A stretch of DNA of 64,000 nt from Flavobacterium silvisoli (lineage in GTDB: Bacteria; Bacteroidota; Bacteroidia; Flavobacteriales; Flavobacteriaceae): contig NZ_SJPE01000001.1 in the NCBI RefSeq assembly GCF_004329815.1, forward strand, positions 186,001 to 250,000. Direction: 5' to 3'. Below the pieces are notes generated by a model. It was not told the DNA's origin, did no database searches, and saw only the letters and a program-made list of their open reading frames with translations. The translations under genes and the position numbers were made by a program. Of this stretch, positions 40,923 to 64,000 are shown piece after piece; the stretch's first letter is position 1; each line of letters opens with the position of its first letter.

Positions 40923-42317
40923 ATGAAACATCTTAACAAATTATTCGTTGTTATGCTCATGTTGGCTGGGTTCAGCTCACAAGCTCAAGACAGCAACAAT
41001 CCTTGGGCGATTTCGTTTGGGGTTAACGCAGTAGATACAAGAGTAAGTGCTGCATCAAAATTGGAGGATCAATTCTCTCAGTATTTTAATGCTAAGGATA
41101 ACTGGAACATCCTTCCTTCTGTATCTTTCGTAAACGTATCTAAGTACGTTGGTAGCAATTTCTCATTCGGAGTTACCGGATCAGTTAACAAAATTACTAA
41201 ATGGGTAAACCCAAGAGTAAATAACGGTCCGTACACTGTTGATAATCCTGGCGACTTGAACTATTATGCAGTTGATGGTGTAATCAACTATAGTTTGATG
41301 AGTTTGATTAAATCAAAAACTATTGATCCTTCTATCCACATTGGTGGTGGTTATACTTGGATTGGTGATGATTTACACGCAGGTACATTAAACGGTGGTC
41401 TTGGATTGACTTACTGGTTTACTGAAACTGTAGGTTTATCTGTTCGTTCTACTTACAAACATTCTTTCGAAGATGTACGTGCAGATATGCCTTCTCACAT
41501 GCAACACTTTGCCGGTCTTGTTTTCAAATTCGGTGGAAAAGATACTGACGGTGACGGAATCTACGACAAAGACGACGCTTGCCCTGAAGTAGCTGGTTTG
41601 AAACAATTCAACGGATGTCCTGATACTGACGGTGACGGAATTGCTGACAAAGACGACGCTTGTCCTGAAATTGCAGGTCCTGCTGAATTCAACGGATGTC
41701 CTGATACTGACGGTGATGGTATAGCTGATAAAGATGATGCTTGTCCTGAAGTAGCCGGTTTAAAATCATTAGGCGGATGTCCTGATGCTGACGGTGATGG
41801 TATTACTGATAAAGCTGATAAATGTCCGGATGTAAAAGGTCCAAAAGAAAACGGTGGTTGTCCTTGGCCAGACAGAGATGGTGACGGAGTATTAGACAAA
41901 GATGACAAATGTCCGGATGTAAAAGGAACTGCTGCTAACAACGGTTGTCCTGAAGTATCTGACGAAGTGGTAAAAAGATTAAACGACTACGCTAAAACAA
42001 TCTTGTTTAACTCAGGTAAATCAACTTTCCAACAACAAACTTACCCAGTGTTACAATCAATTGCCGGAATCTTAAAAGAATACCCTTCTGCTAAGTTCAG
42101 CATCGAAGGTCACACAGATAGCGATGGTAAAGATGCTGCTAACCAAAAATTGTCTGAGGACAGAGCTGCAGCCGTTAAAAATTACTTAATCGAAAACGGT
42201 ATCGCTGCTTCAAGATTATCTTCAGTAGGTTACGGTGAGTCAAGACCAATTGACACTAACAAAACTAAAGCTGGTAAAGCAAACAACAGAAGAGTTGAAG
42301 TGAAATTAGTAAAATAA
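40923..42317 (+). CDS. OmpA-family outer-membrane protein with thrombospondin type-3 repeats
   Basis: A 464-residue protein: signal peptide ([22 protein letters not shown]), an N-terminal beta-barrel (about 25-205), five calcium-binding TSP3 repeats of the form D-x-D-G-D-G-x-x-D-K-x-D-x-C-P (about 210-340) and a C-terminal OmpA peptidoglycan-binding domain (about 350-464; [19 protein letters not shown] and NNRRVEVKL). It links the outer membrane to the cell wall and is typically among the most abundant Flavobacterium proteins. Start at 40923 (the open frame's 13 extra residues are not a signal peptide). Strong promoter and terminator make it monocistronic. Confidence 0.95.
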
Positions 42318-57915: not shown

Positions 57916-58800
57916 ATGAGCCACACCTTTATCATCATTGATGACAACCAAGACGATGTCACGAAAACTTTGGCTATTGCTGAGCGTTTTCGCAATTTGT
58001 CTTACGTGGCTACTGCAAACAGCTATGACGAAGGGGTAAACTTAATTCTCGAACACCAACCTCATTTGGTTTTTCTTGAAATAGACCCAACTGATAAAAA
58101 AAGCAACCTTTCCTTATCGCTAATCAACGAATTGTATCGTTATTTGAGTGTGGTTCCGAAAATTATTGTAACTACTTCAAAAAAAGAATTGGCTTATGAA
58201 GCGCTGAAATACGAAGTCATCGATTATTTACTCAAACCCTTAGACATCAATGATTTCAGAAAAGCTATACTAAAATTTGATCGGGCCATAAAATCAGATT
58301 TGCCGCATTCAGAAGTAAAAAACCCGGCGGCCACTTTTGAAGTTTTAGACGAAACCGTTGCAGAACAACTTGAACAAGAGACCGAAAATGAAGTAACTGT
58401 AAGATCCGACTCGCCCAATGAAGGTCCTTCAGTGATTCAAAAGCAGCAATCGCTCATTATTTGTATTAAATCTTATGGCGATTACCGTTATATTGATTCT
58501 AACGACATTCTTTATTTTGAAGCCGACAACAACTCTACCGACATTCATCTCAACAACGGAGAAATGATTACGGCATTCAAAACACTGAAACATTTTGAAA
58601 CCGTACTGCCCCAATCCCAATTCCTCCGCATTCACAACAGTTATATCATTAATGTTGACCAGGTTTCTCGCATTCATACAGGAAACACTGTATGTTATAT
58701 CAAGAATTCCACCACCAAACTGCCGTTCTCAAAATCATATAAAGACAACGTAGACTTAATCATCAACCGCATTGCCGGGGGTAATTATTTGGAAATATAG
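57916..58800 (+). CDS. LytTR-type response regulator with Glu at the phospho-acceptor site
   Basis: A 294-residue protein: receiver domain (1-125), a Glu-rich linker (about 130-178) and a LytTR DNA-binding domain (about 180-285, with DILYFEADNNSTDIHL and FLRIHNSYIINVDQVSRI). The acidic pocket D9-D10, the switch Thr (VTTS) and the Lys of LLKPLD are kept, but the acceptor position is E55 (LVFLEID), where family members have Asp. Glu there often mimics phosphorylation, so the protein may be constitutively active. It is 33 bp before a second response regulator on the same strand. Start by homology; there is no SD sequence. Confidence 0.9.
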   Translation: MSHTFIIIDDNQDDVTKTLAIAERFRNLSYVATANSYDEGVNLILEHQPHLVFLEIDPTDKKSNLSLSLINELYRYLSVVPKIIVTTSKKELAYEALKYEVIDYLLKPLDINDFRKAILKFDRAIKSDLPHSEVKNPAATFEVLDETVAEQLEQETENEVTVRSDSPNEGPSVIQKQQSLIICIKSYGDYRYIDSNDILYFEADNNSTDIHLNNGEMITAFKTLKHFETVLPQSQFLRIHNSYIINVDQVSRIHTGNTVCYIKNSTTKLPFSKSYKDNVDLIINRIAGGNYLEI

Positions 58801-58832: not shown

Positions 58833-59489
58833 ATGAAAGTAGAGGTGTTTATAGTTGATGATCATCCGCCAATTATTGAGGGATATAAGTCGATATTGGC
58901 TCATAATCCTTATGGGTACATTGTTAATACTCAGGAAAAGTATAATTGTGAGGATGCTTACCATTTCATCACCAATACTGATAAAAGATTTGATTTGGTC
59001 TTTTTAGACATGACTTTACCACCTTATCCCGAAAAAGGTATTTTTTCAGGCCAAGATTTGGTAAAAGTAATCAGGCAATACATGCCCGGTACTAAAATTG
59101 CAATACTGACCTCGCACACCGAAGCAATTGTACTCCAGGACATCATTAAGGAGCAATATCCTAATGGACTGTTAGTAAAAAGCGACATTACCTCGAATGA
59201 TTTTCTGGAAGCTTTTGATAAAATTATCAGAGGTGAAATTGTTTACAGCCAAACGGCTAAATTTTTTAAAGACAACTTAAAAACAACCATAAAACCTTTG
59301 GACAGCTACAACAGAAGAATAATTCTTTTACTGTCAAAAGGTACCAAAACAAAAACCATTCAAGAAACGCTGCACCTATCTAAAAGCGCTATAGATAAAA
59401 GAAAAGTAGCGATAAAAGAGTTTTTGGGAATTGAAAAAGGTAATGATGAAGACATTCTGAGAGAGGCCAGAAAACAAGGCCTTATCTAG
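58833..59489 (+). CDS. NarL/LuxR-type response regulator
   Basis: A 218-residue protein with a receiver (1-125; acidic pair D9-D10, acceptor D59 in LVFLDMTLPP, Lys in LLVKSDI) and a C-terminal helix-turn-helix resembling the LuxR/GerE type (IILLLSKGTKTKTIQETLHL, SKSAIDKRKVAIKEFLGI). The acceptor is intact, unlike that of its neighbour. The likely partner is the HisKA_3-type kinase at 60202, because this kinase class normally pairs with NarL-type regulators. Regulon unknown. Confidence 0.88.
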   Translation: MKVEVFIVDDHPPIIEGYKSILAHNPYGYIVNTQEKYNCEDAYHFITNTDKRFDLVFLDMTLPPYPEKGIFSGQDLVKVIRQYMPGTKIAILTSHTEAIVLQDIIKEQYPNGLLVKSDITSNDFLEAFDKIIRGEIVYSQTAKFFKDNLKTTIKPLDSYNRRIILLLSKGTKTKTIQETLHLSKSAIDKRKVAIKEFLGIEKGNDEDILREARKQGLI

Positions 59490-59816: not shown

Positions 59817-59830
59817 AATTACATATGCCT

Positions 59831-60205
59831 ATGAAGAAAATAATCGCAACTCTTGGAATTTCATTATTATCGCTCCTTTCATCAAACGCACAAAAGAAGG
59901 CTAATCCAGAACCCGACAACAAGGAAACAGTATTTGTGGTCATAAGATCACGAGAAGAATCAATAAAGTACACGTTTACATCTATCCGGGATTTTGAAGA
60001 GAATACGGGTAAAATTTTTGATGAAATAACACCCTACAGCTCAAAAAAATCAGAAAATAGCTGTAATATAGTGGTTGAAATTTCTTTGTCTGCTAAAAAA
60101 GGTGAAACGTCAAAAAACATCGCAGCATCGATTACAACGAATGATGAACAGATCAAAGTAGAAATAAAAAAAATATACGAAAATTTATTATTGGCCATTA
60201 AATGA
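59831..60205 (+). CDS. Small exported protein coupled to the TPR kinase
   Basis: A 124-residue protein with a signal peptide (MKKIIATLGISLLSLLSSNAQ, cut after Ala-Gln or nearby) and a mature part of about 100 residues rich in Lys, Glu and Ser with alternating strands (TVFVVIRSREESIKYTFTS, SCNIVVEISLSAKKGE) and a C-terminal amphipathic helix. I recognise no family. Its stop overlaps the kinase start (ATGA), so the two are made together, and a role as a periplasmic partner of the sensor is plausible. The in-frame ATG at 59825 would add two residues. Confidence 0.75.
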   Translation: MKKIIATLGISLLSLLSSNAQKKANPEPDNKETVFVVIRSREESIKYTFTSIRDFEENTGKIFDEITPYSSKKSENSCNIVVEISLSAKKGETSKNIAASITTNDEQIKVEIKKIYENLLLAIK

Positions 60206-62262
60206 TGAAAATAAAAATAGTCTTAGTCTGTTTCACTTTACTGATGTCACTTTACAGTTGTAATAAAAAAATTGATAGTGGAGATGATAATGTTGTCAAT
60301 GACACAGTCACTAAATATATCGATTTAGCTCTAAATGACACTATTGAATTTAACAAAAGAATAAAATACAATGACAAAGCCTATTCTTTGATTGATTTGG
60401 ATAAAAATGATACTACAGCAAGAAGACAAATGAATCAAATATGTTATGCATATTGCCTCTTCAATAAAAATGAAAAACTCAAATTAGCAGCTGAAAAATT
60501 AAAATCATCTTCTATAAAATATGGCGATACTGAAAGTCTTGCTGATGCCTACAGAAATTTGGGTCTATACTACATGTCAACATCTAATAACGAAAAAGCA
60601 ATTGACTACTTTTTTAAAGCAAAAAAAATATTCCTGTCGATTAATAAAATAGATAAAGTCCTTAAAACAATGGGGAATATTTCAATTACACAATCCTATG
60701 CTTGCGATTTTTTGGGCAGTAATAAAACAGCTATTGAAATGTTATCACTTGCAAAAGAAACAAATGCTAAAATCCATGAGTTTTTTTGCTATGTTAAAAT
60801 TGGCAATAATTTAAGTCTTCTAAATGATAATTTCGAAGCGATTAAATATTTTCAAAAAGCTGAAAAACTCGAATGCTCAACTTCAAAAAAGTACTCTCTT
60901 AATAATGATATAGCTTCATCTCTAATTAACATGAAAAAATACAATGAAGCAATGACATATATAAAAAAAAACTTAGATGATAAAAAAATATCATATATCA
61001 ATCCAACCAACTATTCTCTTTCACTTTCTTTATACAGCTACATTCAATTAAAAAAAAACAACTTTACAAATCTCAAAAAAAAACTGGATACAGCTGAAAA
61101 ACTATTTCTTCATTTTAACAGTGGCTTTGGAAGAAACTATAATCAGTCTTACTTATCAATGTATTACGAAAAAATAAATGACTCTATAAAGGCTATCGAA
61201 CATGCTAAAAAAGCTGTAGCCATATCAAAAAGTTACAAAAATCCAACAGACGTTTTGTTGTGTATGCAACAACTCATAAAAGTAGATAAAAAAAACGCTT
61301 CTGCAAATGCTATTGAGTATATCAGAATAAATGATAGTTTGCAAATAGCAGAAAGAAAATTTCGCGACAAATTTGCAAGAATTGCTTATGAAACTGATGA
61401 AATTATTCAACAGAAAAACAAAGCTATTCGGCAAAAATGGAACATTGCAGGTTTGGCATCACTTTTAATTCTGATTGGAGTGCTGTTTTTTATCATAAAC
61501 TATCTACAAACTAAACAAAAAAGAATGTTGTTGCTGCAGGACCAACAGAAGGCCAATGAACAAATTTATGATTTGATGTTGAATCAAAAAGAAAAAGAAG
61601 ACGAAGTCCGTGAACAGGAAAAAAAACGCATTGCATTAGAATTACACGACGGTATCATGAACAAACTGGCAAGCACACGGATGAATTTATCAGTACTGTC
61701 TCACAAATCAGACCAAGAAACGATAGATAGATGTATTAATTATGTCCATGAGATTTACAAAGTTGAACAAGAAATTCGTTCAGTTTCACACGAACTCCAT
61801 AAGGAAGTACTCCATAAGGAAGACAGTTTCATAAAACTTTTAGAAGATTTAATAAAAGAACAAAAGGTCAACAAAACAAACTATGAATTGGAATTGGATT
61901 CCGAAATCAACTGGAACAATATTTCCAGCAAAGTCAAAATGAACCTTTACCGTATAATTCAAGAGGCCTGCAACAACATCAATAAACATGCACAAGCCAA
62001 TCGGGCAACAATAACCTTCACTATTGATGAACCAAACATATACCTCTCCATAACAGATGATGGAATAGGCTTAGGAAACAAAAGAACTCCAAAAGGAATC
62101 GGAATTCAAAACATGAAACTGAGAGTAAAATCGCTGAGAGGCAAAATTAATTTCAGCTCAGGGAATTACTCGGGTACCACAATCAATATTTCCGTCCCAC
62201 TAAGAAAAAAAATTAAATCGATAATGGTTGTAGGGAAAAATAATACCAAGAGATCCACCTAA
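60202..62262 (+). CDS. TPR sensor histidine kinase with a lipoprotein-type signal
   Basis: A 686-residue kinase. The N-terminus has a lipobox (VLVCFTLLMSLYSC). Residues about 40-400 form degenerate tetratricopeptide repeats (for example ADAYRNLGLYYMSTSNNEKAIDYFFKA), placed outside the cytoplasm. A membrane helix follows at about 412-434, then a coiled coil, a HisKA_3 dimerisation domain with H482 in LELHDGIMNKLA, and a HATPase domain (N box near 590, NNINKHAQ; ITDDGIGLGN; KGIGIQNM). It should sense an extracytoplasmic cue through the TPRs and phosphorylate a NarL-type regulator, probably the one at 58833. Start at 60202 or 60205. Confidence 0.9.
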   Translation: MMKIKIVLVCFTLLMSLYSCNKKIDSGDDNVVNDTVTKYIDLALNDTIEFNKRIKYNDKAYSLIDLDKNDTTARRQMNQICYAYCLFNKNEKLKLAAEKLKSSSIKYGDTESLADAYRNLGLYYMSTSNNEKAIDYFFKAKKIFLSINKIDKVLKTMGNISITQSYACDFLGSNKTAIEMLSLAKETNAKIHEFFCYVKIGNNLSLLNDNFEAIKYFQKAEKLECSTSKKYSLNNDIASSLINMKKYNEAMTYIKKNLDDKKISYINPTNYSLSLSLYSYIQLKKNNFTNLKKKLDTAEKLFLHFNSGFGRNYNQSYLSMYYEKINDSIKAIEHAKKAVAISKSYKNPTDVLLCMQQLIKVDKKNASANAIEYIRINDSLQIAERKFRDKFARIAYETDEIIQQKNKAIRQKWNIAGLASLLILIGVLFFIINYLQTKQKRMLLLQDQQKANEQIYDLMLNQKEKEDEVREQEKKRIALELHDGIMNKLASTRMNLSVLSHKSDQETIDRCINYVHEIYKVEQEIRSVSHELHKEVLHKEDSFIKLLEDLIKEQKVNKTNYELELDSEINWNNISSKVKMNLYRIIQEACNNINKHAQANRATITFTIDEPNIYLSITDDGIGLGNKRTPKGIGIQNMKLRVKSLRGKINFSSGNYSGTTINISVPLRKKIKSIMVVGKNNTKRST

Positions 62263-62843
62263 ATGATGACAAGACATTTTGTCTTGTCCTAAATATTGCA
62301 AAGGCATAGATAAGCATACCAAAGGCATAGATAGTGTATGAGGAATGCATGAAAACATACTTTGAATAAAATTGGCATTTTCATCAACTCATAGTTTTAT
62401 AACCTATAAAAACTACAACCAAAATCTTATCGTAAATAAGCTTATTCAAAATATCTCATAGACATTCGTGATTCTGTTATCAAGAATCAGCTCCAGTATA
62501 AAAAGGATTATATGCTAAGATTGAGAATATCAGACCCTTCTTCACTTTACTATTGTGCACCCCACTTGTGCATTTCCCTTTCTGAATACCGGAAAACTAT
62601 TTTAAAAAACTCTTAAGAACCATTTTTTGTTGAAAAAACTCAAAAACCAAAAAACCATTCCCTCGTATTTGACACTCATTCACTATCAAACGACACCATT
62701 CTACCATAAACACCTCTAAATATAGGGCTTCCGAGAGACATCCTTTCTAGTTTTACATCGTGAAAGTGCAACAGCCTCAAATCAAACTGACTGCACACAC
62801 CACAAAAACGAAACAAAACATTAACAATAAAAAGTCTCAAATT
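62263..62843. other. Noncoding gap with repeats, upstream of the repeat-peptide gene
   Basis: This 581-bp stretch has no convincing gene. It contains a 9-bp hairpin GACAAGACA/TGTCTTGTC (62268-62288; possible kinase-operon terminator with few Ts), two exact copies of CAAAGGCATAGATA 21 bp apart (62299-62312 and 62320-62333), an inverted repeat TGATTCT/AGAATCA (62469-62489), a 12-base stretch TCTACCATAAAC (62700-62711) exactly complementary to the tandem small RNA core, and a poor -7 candidate TAGTTTTA (about 62747). No clean TAnnTTTG promoter for the downstream gene was found. Confidence 0.6.
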
Positions 62844-63107
62844 ATGAAAAAATTAGCAACAACTTTCGGCTTATTAGCACTAATGCTTATAGTTACATCA
62901 TTTACGACTCCAAGTGAGATTGGAGGTCAAGTAACTCCAAGACCTGTAACAAATGAGATTGGAGGTCAAGTAACTCCAAGGCCAGTGGCATTTGAAATTG
63001 GAGGTCAAGTAACTCCAAGACCTGTAACAAATGAGATTGGAGGTCAAGTAACTCCAAGACCTGTAACAAATGAGATTGGAGGTCAAGTAACTCCAAGACC
63101 AATATAA
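62844..63107 (+). CDS. Small exported protein of five 13-residue repeats
   Basis: An 87-residue protein: a signal peptide (MKKLATTFGLLALMLIVTSF, residues 1-20), a short TTPS spacer, then five tandem copies of EIGGQVTPRPVTN from residue 25 to the end. The second copy ends VAF and the fifth is cut to EIGGQVTPRPI. No Cys is present. I know no named family. A small exported protein made of identical units is the design of repeated peptide-signal precursors, though a structural or adhesive role is also possible. It lies between two TPR lipoproteins of sensor type and is closed by its own terminator. Start at 62844; the frame from 62760 has no signal peptide. Confidence 0.8.
   Translation: MKKLATTFGLLALMLIVTSFTTPSEIGGQVTPRPVTNEIGGQVTPRPVAFEIGGQVTPRPVTNEIGGQVTPRPVTNEIGGQVTPRPI
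62916..63104 (+). repeat. 39-bp tandem repeat coding for the peptide units
   Basis: Five units starting at 62916, 62955, 62994, 63033 and 63072 (last partial). Units 1 and 4 are identical, and unit 3 differs by one silent base. Unit 2 differs at its end (R-P-V-A-F). Near-identity at synonymous sites points to recent expansion or gene conversion, so copy number may vary between strains. Confidence 0.95.
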
Positions 63108-63132
63108 TTAAGAATCTTAAAAATACAAAAAA

Positions 63133-63162
63133 AGACTTTCAGTTAGCTGAAAGTCTTTTTTT
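63133..63162 (+). terminator. Intrinsic terminator after the repeat-peptide gene
   Basis: A 10-bp perfect stem AGACTTTCAG/CTGAAAGTCT with a TTAG loop, flanked by As and a T run. Confidence 0.92.
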
Positions 63163-63210
63163 TATTGATATTGTATTACTTTTAGTATTTTAGCAACTCA
63201 AATTTACATC

Positions 63211-64000
63211 TTGAGAAAAAAAGTAATCATATTAATTCCTTTCTTTTTATTTTTCTACAATTGCAATAAAAGCAATAAGGAAAATACTTCTCTAAAACCG
63301 ACTAAAGACAGCTTATCTATTTACCTATCTTCCCAACAAAACATTAAAATATCATTACAGGATAAATTAAAAAACAACCGAAAGGCTTTTTTAATTTTAA
63401 AGTTACAAGGAAACAATTTAAAAAACAGGGTTGATTTATTGAAAGTTGCTAAGAACTTTAAATTGTTAAATCAAAACACCGAGTTCTTAAAATCAATTAA
63501 TTATTTGATAGAAATATCATTATTGGCTAAAGACACTTCCTCTATTGCAAAATCATATAATGCTTTAGCTAACCATTATATAGATACTGGTAAAATTGAT
63601 AGCTCATACGTTTATTTTGTTAAAGCAGAAAAATTCTTCTTCAAAACAAAGGATAGTTTGAATCTTGGTAAAAATTATTTAGAAAAAGCTTATGTTCAAG
63701 TTAATATTGGTGATTTTTCAGGTTGTGAACAATCATCAAGTTTATCATTAAGATACTTGTCAAAATTTAAAGACTATTCAAAAGAATATTTTGCTTATAA
63801 TTTCATAGCGATAAGTTCAAACGAACTTAAAAATTATTCCAATGCGATAATATACCACAAAAAAGCACTTAACGTCGCATCAACAAAAAATTTAAACAGC
63901 GTAAACCATTATAAATCAGTCACATTAAACAATTTAGGAGTTGTTTATCAAAATTTAAACAATCATAAAGAAGCAATACTCAACTTTAATTTAGCTTTAA
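63211..64000 (+). CDS. Second TPR lipoprotein, 5' part only; probable sensor kinase
   Basis: The frame is open to the end of the window (263 codons). It starts best at a TTG (63211), which gives a lipoprotein signal ending in a lipobox (LFFYNC) like that of the kinase at 60202. The rest is TPR-like (AKSYNALANHYIDTGKIDSS, TLNNLGVVYQNLNNHKEAIL). By length, signal type and TPR layout it looks like a paralog of the kinase at 60202, but any kinase domain lies beyond the window. No clean -7 element is seen in the gap after the terminator. Confidence 0.75.
   Translation, partial: MRKKVIILIPFFLFFYNCNKSNKENTSLKPTKDSLSIYLSSQQNIKISLQDKLKNNRKAFLILKLQGNNLKNRVDLLKVAKNFKLLNQNTEFLKSINYLIEISLLAKDTSSIAKSYNALANHYIDTGKIDSSYVYFVKAEKFFFKTKDSLNLGKNYLEKAYVQVNIGDFSGCEQSSSLSLRYLSKFKDYSKEYFAYNFIAISSNELKNYSNAIIYHKKALNVASTKNLNSVNHYKSVTLNNLGVVYQNLNNHKEAILNFNLAL

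Follow-up and report, generated by a model that had tools for sequence, protein, structure and literature searches.

An exported repeat gene of Flavobacterium silvisoli as the probable precursor of the peptide ligand of an adjacent TPR histidine kinase

The yeast alpha-factor precursor consists of a signal peptide followed by near-identical peptide units with spacers. In Bacillota, the receptor of the RRNPP(A) systems is a cytoplasmic TPR protein that meets a re-imported peptide. Tandemly duplicated pheromone propeptides are described for RRNPP(A) Rap-Phr systems (PMC11343458, PMC5199041, PMC9765709). Pherotypes also occur in peptide-pheromone two-component systems such as ComCDE and Agr, those of pneumococci being the subject of two articles (PMC2751782, PMC5629823). 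Among the matches listed from the open-licence literature, consulted as partial texts, none described the locus considered here or assigned a peptide ligand to the extracytoplasmic TPR kinases of Bacteroidota.

The stretch of DNA analysed, referred to as the window, comprises 64,000 nucleotides of F. silvisoli. An initial annotation had placed a signal peptide and five near-identical units at 62844-63107, which reading of the open reading frame and Tandem Repeats Finder both confirm, and had set this gene between two TPR sensor genes. Both neighbours do encode TPR proteins; the downstream one, then called a TPR lipoprotein, is a complete histidine kinase gene (HK2) that is followed by a response regulator gene (RR2). 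The window gene is probably a precursor carrying several units of the peptide ligand cognate to HK2, with pherotype-like alleles. The features of the locus are listed below.

57916..58800, + strand: RR0, response regulator; Pfam Response_reg and LytTR DNA-binding domain
58833..59489, + strand: RR1, response regulator beside HK1; Pfam Response_reg
59825..60205, + strand: small exported protein, 126 aa, directly before HK1
60202..62262, + strand: HK1, TPR sensor histidine kinase; Pfam TPR, HisKA_3, HATPase_c
62656..62701, + strand: putative operator of three CATTC direct repeats, inside a conserved upstream block (alignment)
62748..62756, + strand: conserved TAGTTTTAC element (alignment)
62844..63107, + strand: precursor gene, 87 aa; ORF from ATG 62844 to TAA 63107
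62844..62912, + strand: signal peptide region (MKKLATTFGLLALMLIVTSFTTP), Sec-type by sequence; export predicted
62916..63104, + strand: five tandem units, the proposed ligand, the last one shortened (EIGGQVTPRPI)
63122..63166, + strand: terminator-like hairpin between the precursor stop and HK2; z = -5.2
63211..64000, past the window end, + strand: HK2, proposed cognate TPR sensor histidine kinase; TTG start; Pfam domains
L004:8260-8925: RR2, response regulator, directly after HK2

The whole HK2 gene (L004:6212-8263) encodes 683 aa with Pfam TPR, HisKA_3, and HATPase_c domains. The neighbours in the window locus are glyS (upstream), RR0, RR1, the small exported protein, HK1, the precursor, HK2, RR2, thiL on the opposite strand, lepA, and dusB, with a LolC/E-like gene farther on. 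The commonest order in relatives is glyS - RR0 - (RR1, HK1) - precursor - HK2 - RR2 - thiL, varying somewhat by lineage; the genes identified in them were those homologous to window genes, so that an extra gene could be missed. RR0 adjoins no kinase of its own and is full-length in 67 of the 77 loci that have more than 5.5 kb upstream of HK2. HK1 is an accessory kinase of the locus, full-length in 29 of 82 loci, and RR1 may be NarL-like, in line with weak NCBIfam matches of its homologue RR2. The 126-aa protein before HK1 has no family match in Pfam or NCBIfam. Proteins of this type, ~116-149 aa long and with a pattern like TYEFDS..DF.EN..KIL.EI, precede HK1 in several loci (L013, L033, L073, L078, and others), and this exported family is possibly a partner of HK1. 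A second family of ~132 aa (IKGGELLLSGLS...EIYKKGEYKFE) recurs near HK1 in L015, L018, L020, L022, L023, L030, and L090. Beside the window precursor gene, no AgrB- or ABC/C39-type processing or export gene, no other exporter or protease, and no immunity or peptide-transporter gene was seen. Elsewhere in the window, tandem 81-bp repeats at 41541-41864 code for D-rich units, which we take to be thrombospondin type 3-like.

The precursor consists of MKKLATTFGLLALMLIVTSFTTPS and the units EIGGQVTPRPVTN, EIGGQVTPRPVAF, EIGGQVTPRPVTN, EIGGQVTPRPVTN, and EIGGQVTPRPI. GGQVTPRP is identical across all five units, the residues after it vary, and the second unit has VAF in place of VTN. Tandem Repeats Finder gives the gene a period of 39, 4.9 copies, 90% matches, and a score of 324, the top of the eight rows in the window. 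Searched with a degenerate 32-base pattern of the unit, the 2.89 Mb genome yields three exact matches, every one inside the precursor gene, and a protein search of the same genome led to this single place. The window precursor has no match in Pfam or NCBIfam. Among relatives, 3-7 GG-anchored units are present in 77 of 82 precursors with a median period of 14 aa, and the five precursors without three units (L094, L103-L106) have fewer or degenerate ones. Within genes, the core (four anchor residues left out) has a constancy of 0.972 vs 0.896 for the spacer, as calculated from the 48 of 82 precursors with a usable, regular period (228 unit pairs). The last unit is commonly without a spacer; core length was set from the length of this unit, and the ending of the chain at the core is therefore partly a matter of definition. 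Over the 265 pairs whose RR2 identity is 0.85 or more, signal peptide identity is 95% and mean unit similarity 0.30. Read from its sequence, this anatomy is that of a multi-copy peptide precursor, which would be cleaved. It resembles the alpha-factor precursor in its signal peptide and spaced near-identical units, and differs from it in its bacterial setting beside a TPR kinase, as the yeast system is eukaryotic, with a GPCR receptor and known proteases. The layout of double-glycine bacteriocins, a single GG after the leader together with a C39 exporter, was not found here: the signal peptide is Sec-type by sequence, GG is present in every unit, and no such exporter was seen beside the window gene.

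The N-terminus of HK2 is lipobox-like in 80 of 85 sequences by a loose pattern. Hydropathy shows a strong transmembrane segment after the sensor in all five HK2 proteins inspected, and two of the five have an N-terminal hydrophobic segment as well. The lipobox-like start and the transmembrane segment after the TPR region together place the HK2 sensor outside the cytoplasm, as a predicted topology. A polytopic membrane sensor domain appears neither in the hydropathy of the five HK2 proteins nor in the modelled TPR superhelix. That AF2 model, of the sensor of a relative (L026), was built with 21 sequences and has a mean pLDDT of 88.8; its closest PDB folds by Foldseek are LGN and designed TPRs, followed by Rap receptors, several of them with pheromones. 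When the variable positions were related to the concave TPR face, a per-helix table, judged by eye, gave no clear helix A/B pattern. Over the first 22 sequences, identity per 25-residue block is 63-96% in the kinase region of HK2 (residues 476-675) but only 21-52% in its TPR region (26-375); RR2 is 87.5% and ThiL 91% identical. The locus is similar to RRNPP(A) systems, in which a small exported propeptide, sometimes with several pheromone copies, lies beside an allele-discriminating TPR receptor: HK2 has the TPR fold (Pfam, the L026 model, and the Foldseek matches to Rap), and the precursor is adjacent with predicted export. In contrast, the predicted extracytoplasmic TPR domain is here fused to a membrane histidine kinase in Flavobacteriaceae, and HK2, with its lipobox-like start, transmembrane segment, and HisKA_3/HATPase_c domains, is not a cytoplasmic HTH- or Rap-type receptor. 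LGN-type TPRs also outrank Rap in the fold search of the L026 model.

A scan of GTDB contigs gave 23 loci labelled Flavobacterium or Flavobacteriaceae; 80 further places matched by a precursor profile were read in larger stretches, with some species shared between them and the first 23, along with one further locus (L266). The profile matches 223 of 398 Flavobacterium genomes and 201 of the 333 good-quality ones; it includes the signal peptide, to which weak matches may therefore owe much. Among 397 genomes drawn from 237 genera of the family, it matches three, all Flavobacterium. Repeat genes occurring widely without TPR kinases had been named in the initial annotation as one finding that would speak against a ligand. 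No such pattern exists in the 104 relatives' loci (L013-L035, L071-L150, and L266, some species twice): a TPR histidine kinase gene lies directly downstream of the precursor wherever the contig continues, the contig ending first in L035, L083, and L113. The gap between precursor and HK2 is 27-273 bp with a median of 94 (n=81). For statistics, 103 loci and the window were reduced to 85 by removing HK2 duplicates and the seven without full-length HK2 (L021, L035, L077, L083, L113, L116, L150), and then to 82, window included, by leaving out L114, L125, and L140, whose precursors had been missed or wrongly assigned at extraction, though each has one. The precursors of L125 and L140 adjoin a more divergent TPR histidine kinase. 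RR2 is available for 79 of the 82 loci, ThiL for 74, and GlyRS for 58, and the L089 precursor was taken from an upstream Met, so that its mature region includes signal-peptide residues. One genome (G123, 76% complete) has two precursor loci, L266 and L147, with different units and each beside TPR kinases, the L266 precursor lying between TPR histidine kinase genes; these represent two systems, or two strains in one bin. In L077 (G155), HK1, HK2, RR1, and RR2 are broken into several frames and thiL, lepA, and RR0 are intact; sequencing errors are likely because other kinase matches in G155 also carry stops.

The identity of the unit and that of the HK2 sensor go together. At RR2 identities of at least 0.90, sensor identity is 83% in same-unit pairs (n=11, 0.61-0.99) vs 41% in different-unit pairs (n=83, 0.31-0.69), with 0.68 at middling unit distance (n=7); kinase identity in the same-unit and different-unit pairs is 0.91 vs 0.87. 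Given kinase and RR2, the residual sensor distance in 19 same-unit pairs (unit distance <0.2) is -0.286 against a permutation null of 0.002 +/- 0.020, with none of 2000 permutations as low, and it is -0.253 when ThiL is added. The kinase given RR2 shows no effect in same-unit pairs (p 0.11-0.14), and ThiL is slightly closer in such pairs than RR2 and kinase predict (p 0.008-0.029). Over HK2 residues 26-375 the same-unit advantage is about level, with 0.29-0.50 in each 25-residue block; it fades at the membrane segment and is 0.08 at residues 426-450. For 20 of the 42 same-unit pairs there are comparators with a different unit that are no more distant in RR2, ThiL, and kinase. The sensors are closer within the same-unit pair in 272 of 276 such comparisons, and in 18 of the 20 pairs they are closer than those of every comparator. 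With disjoint pairs the same-unit pair wins in 10 of 11, and L093/L142 goes the opposite way. In L020/L089 and L014/L081, distant lineages share nearly the same unit and also show raised sensor similarity. For HK1, the mean is 0.49 in same-unit pairs, of which there are only two, vs 0.41 in 226 different-unit pairs. In these sequence comparisons, the unit and the HK2 sensor covary while kinase and RR2 stay conserved.

Plain partial Mantel results are weak and unspecific. In 51 fully covered taxa, unit vs sensor has a rho of 0.095 (p 0.055) when kinase, RR2, ThiL, and GlyRS are controlled for, and of 0.085 (p 0.068) when RR2, ThiL, and GlyRS are, while unit vs kinase given sensor gives rho 0.214 (p 0.0005). 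We interpret this weakness as due to the saturation of most unit distances. The arrangement resembles ComCDE and Agr, where the signal gene adjoins a histidine kinase and a regulator, and where signal and sensor domain vary together with kinase and regulator conserved, the Mantel results being weak here. It differs from them in the absence of a polytopic receptor membrane domain and of an AgrB or ABC/C39 exporter beside the window gene, and in having a Sec-type signal peptide, a multi-unit precursor, and a TPR sensor in a Gram-negative member of Bacteroidota.

A further TPR kinase, encoded elsewhere in the genome of the window, served as a control with orthologues in nine other genomes (45 genome pairs). 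Mean sensor identity over these pairs is 0.374 for the control vs 0.378 for HK2, kinase identity is 0.700 vs 0.764, and the ratio of sensor to kinase distance is 2.34 vs 4.02. Among the close genomes G233, G288, and G141, the control sensor is 0.87-0.93 identical, whereas the HK2 sensor is 0.35-0.39 identical beside a kinase of 0.93-0.95. G211 and G233 show the opposite, with 0.44 for the control sensor (kinase 0.93), 0.88 for the HK2 sensor, and units alike. In its own right, the control family (L152-L160; G000:C23:61504-62394) has divergent sensor alleles with a conserved kinase in some genome pairs, and no small exported ORF was found upstream of it by a strict filter. As the control sensor is on average equally variable, a variable TPR sensor is not unique to HK2 and sensor variability by itself was not taken as proof.

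Individual pairs of loci show how units and sensors have moved. At fourfold sites, the L013/L073 sensors are 0.95 identical and their kinases 0.51, a clear case of a recent joint exchange of unit and sensor, ending near the membrane segment. L078/L033 have 0.96 in the kinase and 0.35 in the sensor, with different units. In L123/L130 and L014/L081, silent sites are saturated (about 0.4) in both sensor and kinase and the units are alike; yet the sensor proteins (0.75 and 0.63) are more similar than the kinases (0.66 and 0.55), which suggests old pairs held by selection. Among the eight same-unit pairs compared at silent sites, sensor similarity is above kinase similarity in four (L123/L130, L014/L081, L013/L073, L086/L118) and not in the other four (L020/L089, L026/L078, L032/L033, L025/L028).

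Beyond Flavobacterium, HK2 homologues (E <1e-50) are present in 71 genomes, the window's own among them, out of 120 sampled from as many genera of Flavobacteriaceae, and in a class-level draw 6 of 198 genomes match HK2 at 1e-40, all of them Flavobacteriaceae. A small ORF with a signal-peptide-like start lies directly upstream in 28 of 29 HK2 homologues (26 by the strict filter); these 29 are the best-matching HK2 loci from other genera, and some may be HK2 paralogues. The same filter (strict counts in brackets) finds such an ORF before 3 (0) of 39 control TPR kinases, 8 (0) of 81 RR2, 8 (2) of 74 ThiL, 6 (0) of 57 GlyRS, 3 (2) of 25 LepA, 4 (0) of 68 RR0, and 13 (3) of 27 HK1 genes. The forms found at the precursor position in other genera are mostly single-unit and lipoprotein-like: 25 of the 28 small ORFs have a lipobox-like Cys, and 10 have TGG near the end (e.g., APVTGGQHGD, APFTGGQIDER). 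L250 has three copies within the gene, and L256 and L259 have three gene copies. Nine small ORFs have family matches only below curated cut-offs. In Flavobacterium genomes that the profile does not match, 12 of 15 HK2-like genes also come with a small ORF of this kind, and its C-terminal peptides are different ones. The window precursor may be read as the multi-unit, non-lipidated form of a family-wide ligand precursor. In L214, L215, and L217, two differing small exported ORFs precede one TPR histidine kinase and have similar endings (TPLVIIIKRD and TPIIIIKRD types), which would make the C-terminal peptide the part that functions; one small exported ORF of L215 ends in NPIIVSKKD.

The control region of the precursor gene has its own conserved features. 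The three CATTC repeats start at 62656, 62677, and 62697, with spacings of 21 and 20 bp. At least one CATTC pair at 19-23 bp, always 20 or 21, is present in 45 of 82 loci, and at least two pairs in 12 of 82; no pair at 26-30 bp occurs in the 82 loci. The sequence ATTTGNNNNTCATTCACTNNCAAACG occurs once in the window's genome at up to three mismatches, and in each of the 12 genomes searched the upstream block finds its best match at the promoter of the precursor gene. The element TAGTTTTAC is possibly a promoter -7 region of the Bacteroidota type. LytTR-type regulators such as AgrA and ComE have sites made of direct repeats ~21 bp apart, and the putative operator, with CATTC repeats 20-21 bp apart and the LytTR protein RR0 encoded nearby, resembles them in its spacing. 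With a conserved upstream block and a terminator of its own, the precursor gene is likely to be under feedback on ligand production, for which RR0 (LytTR) and RR2 are candidate regulators.

The proposal that the repeat is the ligand of extracytoplasmic TPR sensors finds support in the covariation with the HK2 sensor and the constant adjacency, and its partner is corrected to the downstream HK2-RR2 pair. The way the sequences have evolved gives good support for the repeat protein as the specific partner of the TPR sensor of HK2. The main rival reading accepts this partnership and makes it cell-autonomous: the repeat protein, or the small lipoprotein-like protein of other genera, would stay in the periplasm of its own cell and bind the TPR sensor, serving it as co-sensor, brake, or tether for the envelope state, and compensatory drift would make unit and sensor coevolve in the absence of any intercellular signal. 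Adjacency and covariation are equally expected from it, the lipobox-like ORFs of other genera (25 of 28) may be membrane-anchored, and no exporter was seen beside the window gene. However, private drift hardly explains the joint exchange between species in L013/L073 or the nearly identical units of distant lineages with raised sensor similarity (L020/L089, L014/L081), and the multi-unit precursors and the duplications in L250, L256, and L259 suggest dosage of a small ligand. This rival is accordingly regarded as rather unlikely, though it deserves serious attention.

Mere linkage of the repeat gene and the sensor on recombined DNA, with no functional coupling, could also make them alike. The genes are adjacent, L013/L073 is a recent shared transfer, and the flanks are closer in same-unit than in different-unit pairs (13 vs 236 pairs; 0.89 vs 0.80 in the 150 bp upstream, 0.81 vs 0.72 in the next 150 bp, and 0.87 vs 0.72 in the intergenic part). 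However, the same-unit advantage shows no steady decay along the 1.1 kb of the sensor and fades at the domain boundary. The signal peptide, which lies between the upstream DNA and the units, is conserved in both kinds of pairs (nucleotides 0.91 vs 0.87), and in L123/L130 and L014/L081 sensor identity exceeds kinase identity despite the saturated silent sites, which makes linkage a very improbable explanation. A structural protein of the envelope, or one for adhesion or phage reception, whose variation serves escape and which the kinase only regulates, would, like the window gene product, be exported, repetitive, and variable between species. It is set low because it would not account for a unit that predicts the TPR sensor of HK2 but not the kinase domain; the protein is also very small, and mostly single-unit, lipoprotein-like forms stand at the same place in other genera, so that we give this reading little credence. 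Scarcely any probability is assigned to a secreted bacteriocin- or microcin-like peptide with the sensor as its immunity or self-detection protein. A short, exported, variable peptide with a cognate partner and a GG motif suits this reading, but no immunity or peptide-transporter gene was seen beside the window gene, GG recurs in every unit in place of a single leader site, and the window precursor matches no Pfam or NCBIfam family.

The reading as a peptide ligand of HK2 leads to the following scheme. The Sec-type signal peptide would export the precursor to the periplasm, where the TPR superhelix of HK2 would recognize the repeated cores (GGQVTPRP), either cut out or still in the chain. HK2 would then relay the signal through its transmembrane helix and HisKA_3/HATPase_c kinase to RR2 and on to output genes, and RR0 or RR2 may exert the feedback on ligand production. 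Unit and TPR sensor would form a specificity pair with many alleles, or pherotypes, that switch together between species. It is plausible that the precursor is cut, released, and acts between cells.

The broadest form of this reading is a family-wide intercellular peptide signalling in Flavobacteriaceae, in which an exported precursor of one or several units would be paired with a TPR histidine kinase whose sensor is extracytoplasmic. Within Flavobacterium, it would comprise dozens of pherotypes, with peptide and sensor passed on together as a cassette and the kinase and regulator left where they are, and would permit kin-specific communication. The considerations for and against this broad form are about evenly balanced. 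If true, it would bring peptide signalling to a group for which the literature searched, seen in part, describes none. TPR histidine kinases of the HK2 type are frequent in Flavobacteriaceae, and no ligand for them was found among the matches listed from these partial sources. As the synthetic unit can be read from the genome, each species offers a directly testable ligand-receptor pair. If confirmed, the system would represent allelic peptide signalling with TPR recognition in Gram-negative Bacteroidota, and would be a source of natural, possibly orthogonal peptide-kinase pairs.
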